Shown one piece after another: positions 12,546 through 35,722 of a DNA stretch of 43,225 nt (within the stretch, counting starts at the first letter, position 1; the number at the start of each line of letters is the position of its first letter). The notes below the pieces were generated by a model that was not told the DNA's origin, ran no database searches, and was given only the letters and a program-made list of their open reading frames with translations. The stretch lies in assembly GCA_020831485.1 (NCBI GenBank), contig JAFIGG010000030.1:1-43225 (forward strand), read 5' to 3'. Source of the stretch: Opitutales bacterium. GTDB lineage: Bacteria > Verrucomicrobiota > Verrucomicrobiia > Opitutales > Oceanipulchritudinaceae. A program made the translations under genes and the position numbers.

Positions 12546-12617
12546 TGATATGTGAGTTGATCTGAAATCAGATTGAGGTCAATTGTGATTTATAAGGATT
12601 GTTGTGTGAGTGAATGC

Positions 12618-14954
12618 TCAGAAACGGGTTCCGAACGAGAAATTGAATTGGTTGCCGCGGTCGTTATCGAAAATCAAGTTGCCTTGATTATCGTAATACC
12701 GGGTGGAAGTCAACGGGATGCCAAAGTCAAGGCGCAGCGGATTGCCAAGCACCAGCAGACGAATACCAAAACCCCAATTGTCATTGTAGGAGCCTGGCGC
12801 AAAGTCAAAACTGTCCTGATTGACAAAACCCCAGTCGTAGAAAAGAGCAAGGCGCAGTGGCTGCGCGACCTGGATGGAATATTCCAGGCTGCCAAAAAGG
12901 TAGGAATTGCCACCGATCGGCTCAAAGGAATCGATCGGACCCACCTCACGGTATTCGAATCCACGCAAAGTGTCCGGCCCACCCAGATAAAAACGGTCAA
13001 AGAAGGGTGCACGCTGGTTACTGTATTCCCAGATCGCGCCACCACGCAGTAGAACAGAAATCACCTGGTCACCCAATTCAAGAGTGGGAATGAAGAAGGC
13101 ATTGCGGGTTTCAAACTTAACGTATTCCGTATCCCCGCCTACACCAGCAAATGTCGTTGAGACTGAAGTCCGGCTGCCCCGGGTCGTGAAAACGAGGTCA
13201 TTTCGGGTATCCCGAGCCAGGAGCAGGCTGATCTTGGAGATGTTTCGCGGACTATTTTGTGCTTCTTCCCGGATTACCAGCGGAGCGCTGGGCTGGACAT
13301 CCTTGAGGTCCACGACTTCAAAACCGTAGGAGATCATGCCATCCACCAGGCCGAACAAACGGCGGCGCATGTAAACGTCAATACCCGTGCGAAGCTCGTT
13401 GTAGGAGGCACTTTGGAAGTCTGTCTCGCGACGGAACAATTCAAAGCCGAGGGCCAAACGCTGCTGAAAGAGCCAAGGCTCTTCGAAGGCCAGTGCCAGC
13501 TCGTTCGAGCGGGAGCCAATGGAGCCGCGAAAACGGAACTTCTGACCCGCACCCTGCAAGAAGGGTGAGCGCCATTTGAAGAGGTCAAAATTCGACTGCG
13601 ACACCTCGAAGAAAAACACAACACTCTCGAGGGAGCTGAAACCGGCGCCCAACTGGAAGTTGCCGGTGCGGCCTTCCCGAACCCGAATATTCAAATTGCG
13701 GCGGCCAGGAATGTTGGTCGGTTCGTGGTTGAGGTTCACCTCCTCGAAGAACCGCGTGTTGTGCAGACGGGCCTCCGAGTTCTTCATGTTGATCAAATTG
13801 AAAGTCCGCCCTGGCTGCAGCGCCAGCTCGCGGATAATGACAATGCTCTTGGTCTTGGTGTTGCCCTCAATATTGATGGACTCGAGGTCGAAGCGATCGC
13901 CTTCACGGATGTTGTAGACCAAATCGATGTCACCCGTTTCAACGTTGGGCCGGCGCTCCGCGCGAATGCTGCTGTCGAGGTAACCAACGGAACCATAAAT
14001 ATTCGTTATCCGCTCGATGTCTTCGTCCAGAACCTCCGGGTCAAACACATCGCCTGGCAACAGATTGAGGGCGGAAAACAGCTGGAGGTCCGGGAAGATG
14101 GTATTCCCCTGAATCGAAATATCACCTAGGCGATACTGACGGCCTTCATCGATGCGAATGGTCACCACCATGGAGTTCTCCGAGGGATAATCGATGGTGA
14201 CATTGGACTCTGGTATACTCACGTCAAGATAGCCCTCGCTCTGATAGAGCTGCCGCAAACGCTGGATGTCGTCCTGCAATTTATTCTCATCGAAGCGCCC
14301 TGAACCGGTCAGCCAGGACATGAACCAGCGACGGCGGGTTTCGATGCCCCGCCGCAGTTTGCGCGAGGAAAACTCGTTGTTTCCGACAAACTCGACGCGG
14401 GCGATGCGCAGTCGCGGGCCTTCATCAATCATGATACGGACGACGCCACGCCCCGTGTCCGGGTTGCGTTCGATTTCGTAATCAATGCGTACCTCGGTGT
14501 ATCCCCGGTCGCGATATAGGTCGCGCACTTCGCGGATATCCTGATTGATCCGGCGCTCATCCAGAGCCCCGCCGATTCGGATACTCATCTCGCGACGGAT
14601 TCGCCGGGTGGAGAGTCGGTCGTTGCCGGAAACCTCAATGCGCCCGACCCGATAACGCGCCTGAACATTAAAGATGATGCGCACTCTTCCATCCCGCATC
14701 TCCTCCGTCTCGGCCTCAATGTAATCAAACATGCCGGTTCCGTAGAGCGAACGAATGGAGCGATCCACAAGGGTTTGACTATACGGTGCGCCTTCGCGCA
14801 ACTGAACCCGGGCAATAATGGCTTCATCACTGATGTTCTGAATGTCCATAAAGCGGACTTGAACATCACCCACCACCAAATCAGTGGCTCGACCTTGCGA
14901 GAAGGCTATGACGCTGGAGCATAAAAAGAGTACAATCAGGAAAAATGGACGCAT
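12618..14954 (-). CDS. bamA: Outer membrane protein assembly factor BamA
   Basis: Central Omp85 component of the BAM complex, which inserts beta-barrel proteins in the outer membrane. The product has 778 residues. A signal peptide (MRPFFLIVLFLCSSVIAFSQG) is followed by successive POTRA domains to about residue 420, seen as repeated patterns such as VGRIEVSGNDRLSTRRIRREMSI, IARVEFVGNNEFSSRKLRRGI, YRLGDISIQGNTIFPDLQLF and DLESINIEGNTKTKSIVIIREL. The 16-stranded barrel contains the Omp85 loop motif as GGPDTLRGFEYREVGP (usually VRGF) and ends in a C-terminal Phe (NFSFGTRF). It starts 8 bp after the dnaB stop, so it is probably in the same transcript. Confidence 0.94.
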   Translation of the reverse strand: MRPFFLIVLFLCSSVIAFSQGRATDLVVGDVQVRFMDIQNISDEAIIARVQLREGAPYSQTLVDRSIRSLYGTGMFDYIEAETEEMRDGRVRIIFNVQARYRVGRIEVSGNDRLSTRRIRREMSIRIGGALDERRINQDIREVRDLYRDRGYTEVRIDYEIERNPDTGRGVVRIMIDEGPRLRIARVEFVGNNEFSSRKLRRGIETRRRWFMSWLTGSGRFDENKLQDDIQRLRQLYQSEGYLDVSIPESNVTIDYPSENSMVVTIRIDEGRQYRLGDISIQGNTIFPDLQLFSALNLLPGDVFDPEVLDEDIERITNIYGSVGYLDSSIRAERRPNVETGDIDLVYNIREGDRFDLESINIEGNTKTKSIVIIRELALQPGRTFNLINMKNSEARLHNTRFFEEVNLNHEPTNIPGRRNLNIRVREGRTGNFQLGAGFSSLESVVFFFEVSQSNFDLFKWRSPFLQGAGQKFRFRGSIGSRSNELALAFEEPWLFQQRLALGFELFRRETDFQSASYNELRTGIDVYMRRRLFGLVDGMISYGFEVVDLKDVQPSAPLVIREEAQNSPRNISKISLLLARDTRNDLVFTTRGSRTSVSTTFAGVGGDTEYVKFETRNAFFIPTLELGDQVISVLLRGGAIWEYSNQRAPFFDRFYLGGPDTLRGFEYREVGPIDSFEPIGGNSYLFGSLEYSIQVAQPLRLALFYDWGFVNQDSFDFAPGSYNDNWGFGIRLLVLGNPLRLDFGIPLTSTRYYDNQGNLIFDNDRGNQFNFSFGTRF

Positions 14955-27163: not shown

Positions 27164-28910
27164 AGAGAAGACGATTCTCAAAGAAACCTTTGCCCGCTAC
27201 CGCAGGCTGGCGGCTGAAAACAAGCGGATCCTCATTTTCGGCGTGCTGTGCGGTATCATTGCGGGTGTCAGCAGTGGCTTTGGGGTTCCGTTTTTTGTGC
27301 AAACGGTGTTCCGTCGAATCTTTGAGGACGCGGATGCCGCCTATTCCCTACCCTACCTGTTTATGGTCGCATCCTTGCTGCCAGCGATCTTTCTGATCCG
27401 CGGTGTGGCCTACTACGGCAACCAGTACCTGCTGCAGCGGGTTTGCCAGAATGTGCTGCTGCGCATTCGCCAGCAATTGTTCCGCCGAATCCAGACCCTG
27501 CCGGTCGCCTGGTTTGAGCGCCGCCAGTCCGGCGACTTGATGGCCAAACTGGTCGGCGACACCCTGCAGATTCAACAGGCAGTGCTTACGGTCTCCAAAG
27601 AGGGATTCTCCCAACCCTTCACCTTCCTCGCCGGACTCGGCTTCCTGATTTTCCTGTCCATCAGCCAGCAGGAAGTGGGCTTTATCCTCTTGTTGATCAT
27701 CCTTGCCCCGCTGATGGCAGTGCCTGTCCGCATCATCGGTGCCAAACTGCGTGGCCGCAGCCGCGACCTGCAATCAACACTCGGCCGACTGACCGAGGTC
27801 ATGGCCGAAAACCTGCGGGGCATCTACGAGGTCCGGGCCTTCAACCGGCAAAAAGCCGAACAGGCCCGCTTCGACAAGGAACTGCGCTTCTACAACCGCT
27901 TTGCCATGAAGATGGCCAAGTACGACCACCTGACACAGCCGCTGATGGAGTTCATCGCGGTCAGCATGGTGTCGCTGGCTTTCGTCTACTCCTACCAGAA
28001 GCAGATCGATTTCTCGACCTTCGCATCCCTGGGCGCTGCGCTCTACTTCACCGTCGATGCGGTTAAGAAGATCGTCAAGATGGTCAACGGCGTTCAGCGC
28101 GTCACCGGGGCCTTCGAACGCATCGAATCCGTACTGCAGGAGCCAGAGCAAATGACCGACCCGGAAGCGCCTCTGAGCTTTGGCACCGTTACCGGCCATA
28201 TTGAGTTTAAGGATGTCAGCTTCAGCTACGGCGGCGAATCAAGCGCACTCAAGGCGGTGGACCTCGACCTGCGGCCCGGAACAATCTGCGCCATCGTAGG
28301 CCACAGTGGCTCGGGGAAATCCACTCTGGTTAAGCTGCTGATGCGTTACTACGATGCCAGCAGCGGGCAGATTCTGGTCGACGGCACACCCATCGATGGC
28401 GTGCGCAAGGCAGATCTGCGTGACCGCATTGCCTTCGTGCCGCAGCAACCGGTACTTTTCAACGCCTCCGTCGCCGAAAACATTGCCCTGGCACGCCCCG
28501 AGGCCAGCCGCGAAGACGTCATTGCCGCCGCCAAGGCAGCCTTCGCCGACAGTTTTATTCAGGAACTGGATGAAGGCTACGATACCGTTGTCGGCGAAAA
28601 CGCCGTGCGCCTCTCCGGTGGCCAGCGCCAACGCCTGGCCCTGGCCCGGGCCTTTCTCAAAGATGCCCCGATCCTGGTCCTCGACGAAGCCACATCCGCC
28701 CTCGACCGCGACAGCGAAGAGCACATTCAGGAAGCCCTCACCCACTTCGCCAAAGGCCGCACCGTCCTGATCATCGCCCACCGCTTCTCCACAATCCGCC
28801 TCGCCAACTGGGTAGTCCTCATGGAAGCCGGCCGCATAGAGCAACAAGGCAAACCCGAACAACTCTGGAAAAACGAACTGTTCAGCAAGCTGTTCAATGA
28901 AAGGGGCTGA
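27156..28910 (+). CDS. msbA: Lipid A/multidrug ABC exporter (MsbA family)
   Basis: Half-size ABC exporter, about 584 residues like E. coli MsbA (582). Six predicted TM helices span about residues 25-320. The nucleotide-binding domain has Walker A GHSGSGKSTL (about residue 382), the Q-loop FVPQQPVLFNASVAENIAL, the signature LSGGQRQRLALARAF and Walker B ILVLDEATSALD, with the H-loop in IIAHRFSTI. The start is ATG 27156 or the ATG two codons earlier; a longer frame from 26979 only shadows lpxL. The start overlaps the end of lpxL, implying translational coupling. Flipping of lipid A core is the best guess from context. Confidence 0.88.
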   Translation: MSEEKTILKETFARYRRLAAENKRILIFGVLCGIIAGVSSGFGVPFFVQTVFRRIFEDADAAYSLPYLFMVASLLPAIFLIRGVAYYGNQYLLQRVCQNVLLRIRQQLFRRIQTLPVAWFERRQSGDLMAKLVGDTLQIQQAVLTVSKEGFSQPFTFLAGLGFLIFLSISQQEVGFILLLIILAPLMAVPVRIIGAKLRGRSRDLQSTLGRLTEVMAENLRGIYEVRAFNRQKAEQARFDKELRFYNRFAMKMAKYDHLTQPLMEFIAVSMVSLAFVYSYQKQIDFSTFASLGAALYFTVDAVKKIVKMVNGVQRVTGAFERIESVLQEPEQMTDPEAPLSFGTVTGHIEFKDVSFSYGGESSALKAVDLDLRPGTICAIVGHSGSGKSTLVKLLMRYYDASSGQILVDGTPIDGVRKADLRDRIAFVPQQPVLFNASVAENIALARPEASREDVIAAAKAAFADSFIQELDEGYDTVVGENAVRLSGGQRQRLALARAFLKDAPILVLDEATSALDRDSEEHIQEALTHFAKGRTVLIIAHRFSTIRLANWVVLMEAGRIEQQGKPEQLWKNELFSKLFNERG

Positions 28911-28912
28911 GG

Positions 28913-28944
28913 GGAAGGCTGGAGTATTGGATGGTTGGATTGAT
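28913..28944 (+). repeat. Degenerate 8-bp tandem array, left arm (GGANNNNT)
   Basis: Four consecutive octamers GGAAGGCT, GGAGTATT, GGATGGTT and GGATTGAT begin two bases after the msbA stop. All fit GGANNNNT. This is the reverse complement of the unit in the array at 29027-29090, so the two arrays face each other. Parts of the two arms can pair (AAGGCTGGAG and TTGGATTGATGG recur inverted). Confidence 0.65.
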
Positions 28945-28949
28945 GGGGG

Positions 28950-28969
28950 CTCGGACGCCCTCGTCCGAG
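28950..28969. repeat. GC-rich hairpin with CCCT loop
   Basis: Perfect 8-bp stem CTCGGACG/CGTCCGAG around the tetraloop CCCT. It belongs to the same family as the hairpins near 19.7 kb and 35.8 kb (shared core CGCCCTCG). It lies in the convergent gap between msbA and the helicase gene and has no T-run. Confidence 0.65.
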
Positions 28970-28982
28970 TGTGTCCGCCCCG

Positions 28983-29009
28983 TCTGACCAGTCTGACTTG
29001 TCCGACACC
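28983..29009 (+). repeat. Three 9-bp repeats (TCTGACNNG-like)
   Basis: TCTGACCAG, TCTGACTTG and TCCGACACC stand in tandem. Read on the minus strand in one frame they give Ser-Asp-type codons (S-D-K-S-D-W-S-D). They closely resemble the 9-bp units inside the E2 linker coding region at 34724-34777. Confidence 0.5.
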
Positions 29010-29026
29010 GCTCCAGCAAATAGCCC

Positions 29027-29090
29027 AACGATCCATTACTCCAGCATTCCATCAATCCAATCTTCCACCGCTCCAGCCTTCCACCATTCC
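29027..29090 (+). repeat. Degenerate 8-bp tandem array, right arm (ANNNNTCC)
   Basis: Eight uninterrupted octamers, all fitting ANNNNTCC: AACGATCC, ATTACTCC, AGCATTCC, ATCAATCC, AATCTTCC, ACCGCTCC, AGCCTTCC, ACCATTCC. An isolated unit ACCGCTCC also lies at 29007-29014. Positions 1 and 6-8 are fixed while the middle varies, so the period is conserved more than the sequence. A seven-C stretch and the helicase terminator follow. Confidence 0.7.
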
Positions 29091-29095
29091 CCCCC

Positions 29096-29141
29096 AAAAA
29101 AAAGACCCGCCGGGTCGCCTCGAAGGGCGACCCGACAGGTC
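29096..29141 (-). terminator. Rho-independent terminator of the DEAD-box helicase gene
   Basis: On the minus strand a 9-bp GC stem CGGGTCGCC/GGCGACCCG (29111-29119 with 29126-29134, 6-base loop) is extended by GACC/GGTC across a 3x3 internal loop. Eight T residues follow (complement of 29096-29103). It lies about 45 bp beyond the helicase stop codon. Confidence 0.85.
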
Positions 29142-29159
29142 AACGGGAAAGGATGTCTG

Positions 29160-29179
29160 CACTCCGGAGCTCCGGAGTG
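29160..29179. repeat. Perfect 20-bp palindrome
   Basis: CACTCCGGAGCTCCGGAGTG is a perfect inverted repeat with no loop, 5 bp downstream of the helicase stop codon. It could form a cruciform or an mRNA hairpin protecting the 3' end, or bind a dimeric protein. The half-site GCTCCGGAG recurs near 35791 in the gap after pdhC. Confidence 0.7.
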
Positions 29180-29184
29180 TTTAA

Positions 29185-30516
29185 TCAGCGTCCGGTTCTT
29201 GCCGGACGGCGTTTTTTGCTGAAGCCTGGCTTGCTGGCGCGGAAGTCGCCACCGCCGCCTTGACGGGAGCGGAAGCCACCGGAGCTGCGGCCACCCTGGC
29301 CACCACCCTGACGTCCACGACCACCGCCGAAGCGGCCACGGCCGGAACCGCCTTCGGCGCGCTGAGGCACCGGTTCGGCGTGGGGATGGTCACGCATCAC
29401 AGGAATGTCCTGACGAATGATGCGCTGGATGCCCTTCAGCAGGCGGAACTCGGAGCGGTCGCAAAGCGAAATGGCAAGACCTTCGGCACCTGCGCGGGCC
29501 GTGCGGCCGATGCGGTGAACGTAGGCATCCGGCTCGTCCGGAAGCTCGAAGTTGATGACCAGCGAAATGCCTTTTACGTCAATGCCGCGGGCAGCTACAT
29601 CCGTAGCCACCAGCACGCGGTCGCGTCCAACACGAAAGCGTTCGAGGGCATTCTGGCGGGCATTCTGGGACTTATCGCCATGAATTGCACCGGCAGGAAT
29701 GCCAGCCTTGCAGAGCTGAACGGAGAGGCGGTTGGCGCCGTGCTTGGTGCGGCTAAAGACGAGGACTCGACCGTCGTGGTCACTCTCGATCAGGTGCATC
29801 AGCAGTTCCAGCTTGTTCGGCTGCTTCACGTGGCAGACCCACTGGGCCACCTTGTCGGCAGTCGTTGCCACCGGTGCGATGTGAATATTGACCGGGTTGT
29901 CAAGAATCTGGTCGACCAGGCTGCGAATCGCGTCTGGCATGGTGGCCGAAAACAGCAAGGATTGGCGGCGCTGCGGCAGCAGCGAGCGAATCTGCTTCAC
30001 GTCCGGAGCAAAGCCCATGTCGAGCATGCGGTCCGCTTCGTCCAGAGCAAAGATCTCTACTTCACCCAACTCCAGAGCGCGCTGATCGAGCAGGTCGAGC
30101 AGACGGCCCGGTGTCGCCACCAGTACATCCACACCACGGCGCAGTGCGCGCACCTGAGGGATTTGGCTGACGCCACCGTAAACAACCGCATGGCTCAGCT
30201 TGAGGTAGCGGCCATAGGTCGCAAAGCTCTCGCTGACCTGGACGGCCAGTTCACGGGTTGGTGTCAGGATCAGCGCACGCGGACGGCCTGGCTTACAGCG
30301 TTTACCATCTTCAGAGAGGCGCTGTAGGATCGGCAGCGCAAAGGCAGCCGTCTTGCCGGTGCCCGTTTGGGCACAGCCCAGAACATCGCGGCCATCAAGC
30401 AGATGGGGAATGGTCTCCGCCTGAACAGGCGAAGGGGTTGTATAGTTTTTGTCGGCCAATGCCCGCAGAAGGGGAGCCGACAGACGCAGGGCGTCGAAGG
30501 TAATATCAGATTGCAT
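29185..30516 (-). CDS. rhlE: DEAD-box RNA helicase, RhlE-like
   Basis: ATP-dependent RNA helicase, 443 residues. All canonical motifs are present in order: Q motif SPVQAETIPHLL, motif I AQTGTGKT, Ia PTRELAVQV, Ib TPGRLLDLL, II LDEADRMLD, III SATMP, IV VLVFSRTKHGANRL, V VATDVAARGIDV and VI HRIGRTARAG. After the core, FRLLKGIQRIIRQDIP resembles RhlE proteins. A Gly/Arg-rich tail (about residues 385-443, RGG-type repeats ending KKRRPARTGR) should bind RNA nonspecifically. Such helicases act in ribosome assembly, cold adaptation and RNA decay. The leader carries a symmetric inverted repeat over its likely promoter. Confidence 0.92.
   Translation of the reverse strand: MQSDITFDALRLSAPLLRALADKNYTTPSPVQAETIPHLLDGRDVLGCAQTGTGKTAAFALPILQRLSEDGKRCKPGRPRALILTPTRELAVQVSESFATYGRYLKLSHAVVYGGVSQIPQVRALRRGVDVLVATPGRLLDLLDQRALELGEVEIFALDEADRMLDMGFAPDVKQIRSLLPQRRQSLLFSATMPDAIRSLVDQILDNPVNIHIAPVATTADKVAQWVCHVKQPNKLELLMHLIESDHDGRVLVFSRTKHGANRLSVQLCKAGIPAGAIHGDKSQNARQNALERFRVGRDRVLVATDVAARGIDVKGISLVINFELPDEPDAYVHRIGRTARAGAEGLAISLCDRSEFRLLKGIQRIIRQDIPVMRDHPHAEPVPQRAEGGSGRGRFGGGRGRQGGGQGGRSSGGFRSRQGGGGDFRASKPGFSKKRRPARTGR

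Positions 30517-34336: not shown

Positions 34337-35722
<1,386 letters not shown>

Follow-up and report, generated by a model that had tools for sequence, protein, structure and literature searches.

Two arrays of a degenerate 8-bp repeat, located between an msbA-like ABC transporter gene and a DEAD-box helicase gene in the window (the 43,225-nucleotide stretch of Opitutales bacterium DNA that was analysed as a whole), together make up a single foldback structure, with TGGA units in the first arm and TCCA units in the second. We consider it probable that this feature is a decayed, non-autonomous insertion element of the foldback type, resembling a MITE with inverted TGGANNNN arrays as its arms and a variable centre. 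The window copy would be assigned to this mobile class by its architecture only, and the evidence for mobility comes from copies in a distant relative, G239, rather than from the window's own genome.

The transporter and helicase genes, named by family assignment, end with stop codons at 28910 and 29185, respectively, with the helicase gene on the opposite strand. Four bases of each 8-bp unit are fixed (TCCANNNN, or TGGANNNN when read on the opposite strand), and the fixed word is better given as TCCA/TGGA than as GGA/TCC. A sequence-only reading had described octamer arrays after msbA and before the helicase terminator, with a perfect CCCT-loop hairpin and a 9-bp repeat between them. All of these parts are present, and the description of the gap as a composite element holds:

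28912 to 28955, minus strand: left arm, a TGGANNNN array (TCCA on the minus strand) of three exact and three one-mismatch units
28913 to 29082, no strand: whole inverted repeat, with arms 28913-28946 and 29049-29082 that are 85% complementary
28950 to 28969, no strand: small perfect hairpin CTCGGACG-CCCT-CGTCCGAG with an 8-bp stem, a word that recurs beside arrays in the own genome
28982 to 29008, plus strand: three 9-bp GTCNGACNN units
29024 to 29091, plus strand: right arm, a TCCANNNN array of seven exact and two one-mismatch units
29097 to 29141, minus strand: intrinsic terminator of the helicase gene, between that gene and the right arm (context, outside the element)

Exact TGGA words of the left arm lie on the plus strand at 28920, 28928, and 28936 (n = 3), with one-mismatch units at 28912, 28944, and 28952. 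In the right arm, exact TCCA words are found at 29032, 29040, 29048, 29056, 29064, 29072, and 29080 (n = 7), with one-mismatch units at 29024 and 29088. All six matches to a three-unit pattern in the window fall inside the msbA-helicase gap, against 0.01 expected for the window from dinucleotide shuffles. Tandem Repeats Finder reports the right arm only, and weakly (65% matches, score 32). The 9-bp units read, in order, GTCTGACCA, GTCTGACTT, and GTCCGACAC. A second 9-bp array, GAGTCCGAC-like and present in 4.9 copies at 34724-34767 of the window, is related to these GTCNGACNN units; double units of the GTCNGACNN/GAGTCCGAC kind number only six in a 0.97-Mb sample of the own genome, three of them near TCCA arrays. 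Elsewhere in the gap, a perfect 20-bp palindrome, CACTCCGGAGCTCCGGAGTG, occupies 29160-29179, flanked by the terminator of the helicase gene on one side and its stop codon on the other.

The gap had been read as holding two converging arrays around a hairpin. The arrays are real, but they are not separate, since they constitute the arms of one inverted repeat with 85% complementarity over 34 nt. Alternative matches between the arms, at 74% and 88%, are displaced by one and four units (8 and 32 bases). When folded as RNA, positions 28911-29098 form one long hairpin (-87.3 kcal/mol, z -8.2) that none of 200 shuffles equals, and the same stretch gives a z of -6.4 when folded as DNA. Among 46 own-genome arrays, the best partner for the window left arm is the window's own right arm. 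Across 40 paired elements the mean fold z is -4.1, and the shorter arm is mostly paired with the other arm. The feature thus shares the layout of foldback elements, in which a variable centre is enclosed by long inverted arms that consist of tandem subrepeats. A known structured RNA family was rejected as an identity for it, because no Rfam model matches the element at gathering score.

Pairing between the arms does not appear to depend on matched free positions. Among 22 arm pairs, covariation between the free positions of the two arms shows no excess over within-arm permutation of the four-base variable segments (quads), and arms swapped among G239 copies pair as well as true partners do. 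A 15-element set drawn from several genomes favours true partners, and we give this result no weight because exchanging arms in this set mixes genomes whose unit logos differ. Since the quads are no better matched than permuted ones and the G239 arms are interchangeable, what holds the stem together is composition along with the phased TGGA/TCCA blocks, and the stem can slip by whole units. The unit logo itself varies by genome (TCCA-[CA]-C-[AC]-[TA] in the own genome, TCCANYAC in G012, and TCCAARCY in G017 with G154), and TCCA is common to all, although part of this fixity arises by construction because arrays were located by exact TCCA. Four of eight positions vary, with 60 distinct quads among 211 in the own genome. 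The exact spacing, the four fixed bases, and the difference from CRISPRs and ordinary microsatellites are points on which the earlier proposal is supported.

The helicase terminator is positioned ahead of the right arm, and msbA has its next terminator-like site past the element; therefore, msbA mRNA may carry the element hairpin. On the plus strand, a terminator-like hairpin with a T-run at 29189-29214 overlaps the 3′ end of the helicase gene and is possibly the msbA terminator.

Arrays of this kind abound in the own genome, whose 3.86-Mb draft (142 contigs) yields 139 matches to a four-unit pattern and none to a reversed control. Moreover, when every four-base word is combined with every period from 5 to 14, TCCA at period 8 ranks first in the 0.97-Mb sample, with 53 loci versus none in first-order Markov sequence, in a sample that is biased to array-bearing contigs and gives no density estimate. 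The enrichment that the earlier proposal depended on is therefore present in this genome, and the pattern also extends to relatives, being found in 74 of 388 genomes of the phylum. Its distribution is patchy, in that other species of an array-bearing genus or family often have no match, and most members of array-bearing families are without them. The pattern also occurs in 21 of 294 genomes from the phylum to which a Brocadiia genome belongs, and many of the matches listed there are perfect microsatellites; three genomes of that phylum (G555, G570, and G585) carry many varied arrays, with TGGA...TCCA pairs in G570 and G585. A scan for a viral origin likewise returned many perfect microsatellites.

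Several further observations concern the surroundings of arrays. Contigs C5, C28, C31, C49, C50, C55, C58, C80, and C86 of the own genome have arrays within a few hundred bases of their ends, which suggests that the elements break the assembly and are hence undercounted. In the own-genome locus L086 (contig C1, 7300-8800), three near-identical segments of ~450-700 bp each contain an array along with further degenerate words in tandem, namely ACAGGATNN at period 9 and CTGAGGAT at period 8. A 550-bp intergenic stretch at G017:C1:28494-29046 is rich in other short repeated words (such as ACAAAGGNN and GCAGATTNN), and the congener G077 has 25 bp there (G077:C1:100752-100777). A dispersed repeat of ~60 bp (L211, 17045-17105), with dozens of copies across genus g64, is apparently unrelated to the TCCA arrays.

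Array orientation follows a strict rule. All 23 pairs of opposite arrays no more than 250 bp apart in the sequences read have the order TGGA...TCCA. Phylum-wide, TGGANNNNTGGA-(20 to 50)-TCCANNNNTCCA gives 220 matches in 46 genomes (the forward column summed by hand, with overlapping registers counted separately), and the opposite order gives 16 in 14 genomes, most of which have few dispersed arrays or none. Close to gene edges (within 60 bp), TGGA points away from the gene in 64 cases and TCCA in five, and 3′ and 5′ edges behave alike. This symmetric rule is independent of transcription direction, and thus fits a DNA element rather than an mRNA signal.

The idea that these arrays are a feature of convergent gene ends is not supported. 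They occur in convergent, divergent, and co-directional gaps, and 10 of 38 placed arrays are in convergent gaps compared to 41 of 315 gaps of at least 50 bp, an excess that is at most weak, in a sample biased to array contigs and with genes from a simple hexamer-scored caller. A conserved element at the msbA locus was rejected, because arrays of at least three units are missing from the 3′ flanks (465-1500 bp covered) of all 21 msbA orthologues; these orthologues are from distant relatives (~60% protein identity or less), and their gaps are not alignable to the window.

The evidence for movement comes from G239, in which a dispersed element of ~215 bp has the arms immediately inward of its two ends. 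A search with the 120-bp core of this element gives 39 matches in G239 at 73-100% identity, some of them fragments, with 10 further matches in G162 of the same genus and two fragments in G230; in two genomes of the same family, G120 and G132, it gives none. The arms are bordered on their outer sides by imperfect 13-bp terminal repeats, CAGTGTCATCCCA and CACTGCCGTCCCA, and the same outer ends are present on an element in a genome of another family (G363, L032). For five of the seven G239 copies with both ends recognisable, the insertion is flanked by 9-bp target-site duplications that match at 8 or 9 positions, whereas 42 mismatched pairs of G239 flanks reach at best 7 of 9 positions and none is duplicated. 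Dispersal with target duplication is thereby shown in one genus, and the elements in G239 and G162 resemble MITEs in being short, non-coding, and present in many dispersed copies that share sequence. Related G239 copies have cores that are 88% identical versus 73% at the free positions of their arms, which is consistent with exchange between arms or with faster change in them. At 12600-13300 of the G239 locus L371, an element is interrupted by another insertion with GGGAACCTCTAAAAA-type inverted ends.

Own-genome arrays do not repeat all of these characteristics, which counts against the reading as an insertion element. Most of them are single, and arrays that neighbour each other mostly share a strand. 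Where an array stands alone, it leads into one of several small palindromes that recur in the genome (GGAGC-CCGGCCTTTAGGCCG, CGGACGCCCTCGTCCG, and TAGCGAA..CGATAG..TTCG) and are found close to arrays more often than uniform placement predicts, in a test inflated by intergenic clustering. A shared mobile core was not found next to own-genome arrays, and at the window copy inverted array arms are seen and neither an outer terminal repeat nor a target duplication. The other non-G239 elements that were read likewise have no outer repeat or duplication, except for the outer ends in G363. Neither an autonomous copy nor a transposase was found in the sequences read, and the genes located between TGGA...TCCA arrays encode DUF3795, PEP-CTERM, and L-PSP proteins and a weak match to a redox protein, with no transposase among them.

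Based on these data, we propose the following course for a foldback-type insertion element. A transposase supplied in trans would recognise the ends, with the repeated TGGANNNN units probably serving as subterminal binding sites, a role for which there is a precedent in the proposal that tandem repeats in foldback-like arms are extra transposase sites (PMC3573991). Insertion into intergenic DNA would create the 9-bp target duplication, as seen in G239 and not in the window's genome. The arms are predicted to pair in several 8-bp registers, and pairing in shifted registers could cause units to be gained, lost, and exchanged between copies, such that TGGA and its spacing are kept while the four N positions drift. 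Old copies would then lose an arm or their ends and leave single arrays, as may be the case for most of the own genome. In the window, the copy would place a long hairpin, formable on either strand, between msbA and the helicase gene.

A different and somewhat unlikely reading gives the arms a life of their own. The arms flank varied DNA, including mobile cores in G239, small palindromes in the own genome, and an apparent promoter in genus g64. The TGGANNNN arms could be an inherited module that spreads or grows on both sides of arbitrary DNA through the action of one enzyme shared across the phylum and beyond, with the arm code rather than the core as the replicating unit. The g64 case concerns one intergenic slot, which by eye appears to lie in a nifS-nifU-like gene pair. 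Five species have no array there and others have partial arrays, and the slot holds 4+5 units in G003 and 8+11 in G322. The arrays flank or overlap the apparent promoter (TTGACT, 17 bp, AATAAT) and not a mobile core, which counts against the preferred foldback reading.

The same range of unit number at an orthologous slot, from zero to 8+11, is what one would expect if slippage during replication creates arrays in intergenic DNA that tolerates them and the arrays then diverge, with neither mobility nor function. Homogenised higher-order repeats in some arrays, such as those of G158, also agree with a minisatellite origin. However, slippage leaves unexplained why TCCA is fixed while the quads are free, why orientation is strictly inverted, and why dispersed G239 cores have 9-bp duplications, and so we regard it as unlikely.

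It is also doubtful that the arrays are selected Rho-loading (rut) sites where Rho would stop antisense RNA and untranslated read-through at the borders of genes. Known rut sites are rich in C, poor in G, and contain YC dimers (PMC9160355), and the TCCA strand has this composition, with much C, almost no G, and one YC dinucleotide per 8 nt. Given the 64:5 polarity, UCCA would be present in any RNA that runs into a gene from the intergenic side. Yet published descriptors space YC at 9-13 nt with no strict period (PMC9160355), the helicase gene already has an intrinsic terminator ahead of the array, and the TCCA arm of paired elements would be sequestered in a hairpin. The patchy occurrence among close relatives and the target duplications at mobile copies also argue against this role.

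Exact phasing, four fixed bases, and symmetric polarity at both gene edges might alternatively indicate an insulator or a platform on which an oligomeric protein recognises TGGA at 8-bp intervals. Such a platform had been suggested for the window gap, but as a primary role it receives no positive support beyond the phasing. There is no candidate protein, arrays are absent from most members of the same families and from orthologous gaps, and copies are mobile in G239, making this explanation very unlikely.

Least probable are REP/REPIN-type palindromes moved by RAYT (Y1) transposases. In the own genome, small palindromes headed by GGAG or TAG adjoin many of the arrays, and GTAG-tagged REPs are reported to be enriched in Opitutus terrae (PMC3733652), but an association with these enzymes was rejected over 80 genomes, as Y1_Tnp counts are alike in 40 array-positive and 40 array-negative genomes (p 0.22), their number does not follow array number (rho -0.02), and six array-positive genomes, one with 127 pattern matches, have no Y1_Tnp match. 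As a separate observation, G158, from the window's family, has 47 Y1 transposase matches, far above every other genome searched. Movement of the IS200/IS605 type is not expected to leave 9-bp duplications, which also counts against RAYT.

Bacterial intergenic repeats are usually sorted as REPs, MITEs, or CRISPRs. Ordinary repeat finders largely overlook a dispersed class with foldback-style arms that is defined by just four bases in every eight; even the clearest arm scores 65% matches in Tandem Repeats Finder. A literature search for literal element sequences, covering part of the literature, returned nothing relevant.

Among known short repeats, ordinary microsatellites and STRR sequences have near-identical tandem units, and the arrays described here do not. 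Cyanobacterial STRR heptamers are short-period intergenic direct repeats with 7-bp units and a fixed word, and are patchy between lineages. We know of no inverted-arm architecture for them or for the TAACTGA repeats of marine Beggiatoaceae. The latter direct repeats are similar to our arrays in their short period, their many intergenic sites per genome, and their patchiness between lineages, and differ in having 7-bp units with a fully fixed word (PMC4679880). GTAG/CGTC-tagged REPs, REPINs, and TIR families are likewise extragenic, palindromic, dispersed, and near gene ends, and the small palindromes beside own-genome arrays resemble the tagged REPs (PMC3733652). In contrast to REPs and REPINs, the arms here are tandem 8-bp arrays and are without Y1 transposase association. 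BrickBuilt of Porphyromonas gingivalis is also a bacterial, intergenic, non-coding element, in which a tandem block of conserved and variable positions resides within a terminal-repeat MITE. However, its repeat is 23 nt long and forms one internal block without inverted arms, its terminal repeats resemble IS5-family ends, and its duplications are short and irregular (PMC4596501).

The element works like a foldback element, and is not filed as a member of that class because autonomous copies with a transposase of a known superfamily were not found in the sequences read. It differs from the eukaryotic examples in being bacterial, in having an 8-bp subrepeat with four fixed bases where that of Tm1 is ~14 bp (PMC3169594), and in having arms of tens rather than hundreds of bases; the likeness is one of architecture with no evidence of common descent. 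As in Drosophila FB, Tm1 (PMC3169594), and Galileo (PMC3573991), inverted arms of short tandem subrepeats and unequal length enclose a variable centre, arms would be exchanged between copies, and insertion leaves target duplications (in our case in G239), which for Tm1 are also 9 bp (PMC3169594). TGGA at every eighth base is a simple search key for elements of this kind. Such elements would be the bacterial equivalent of the foldback arms of eukaryotes and could lead to the enzyme responsible for their movement.
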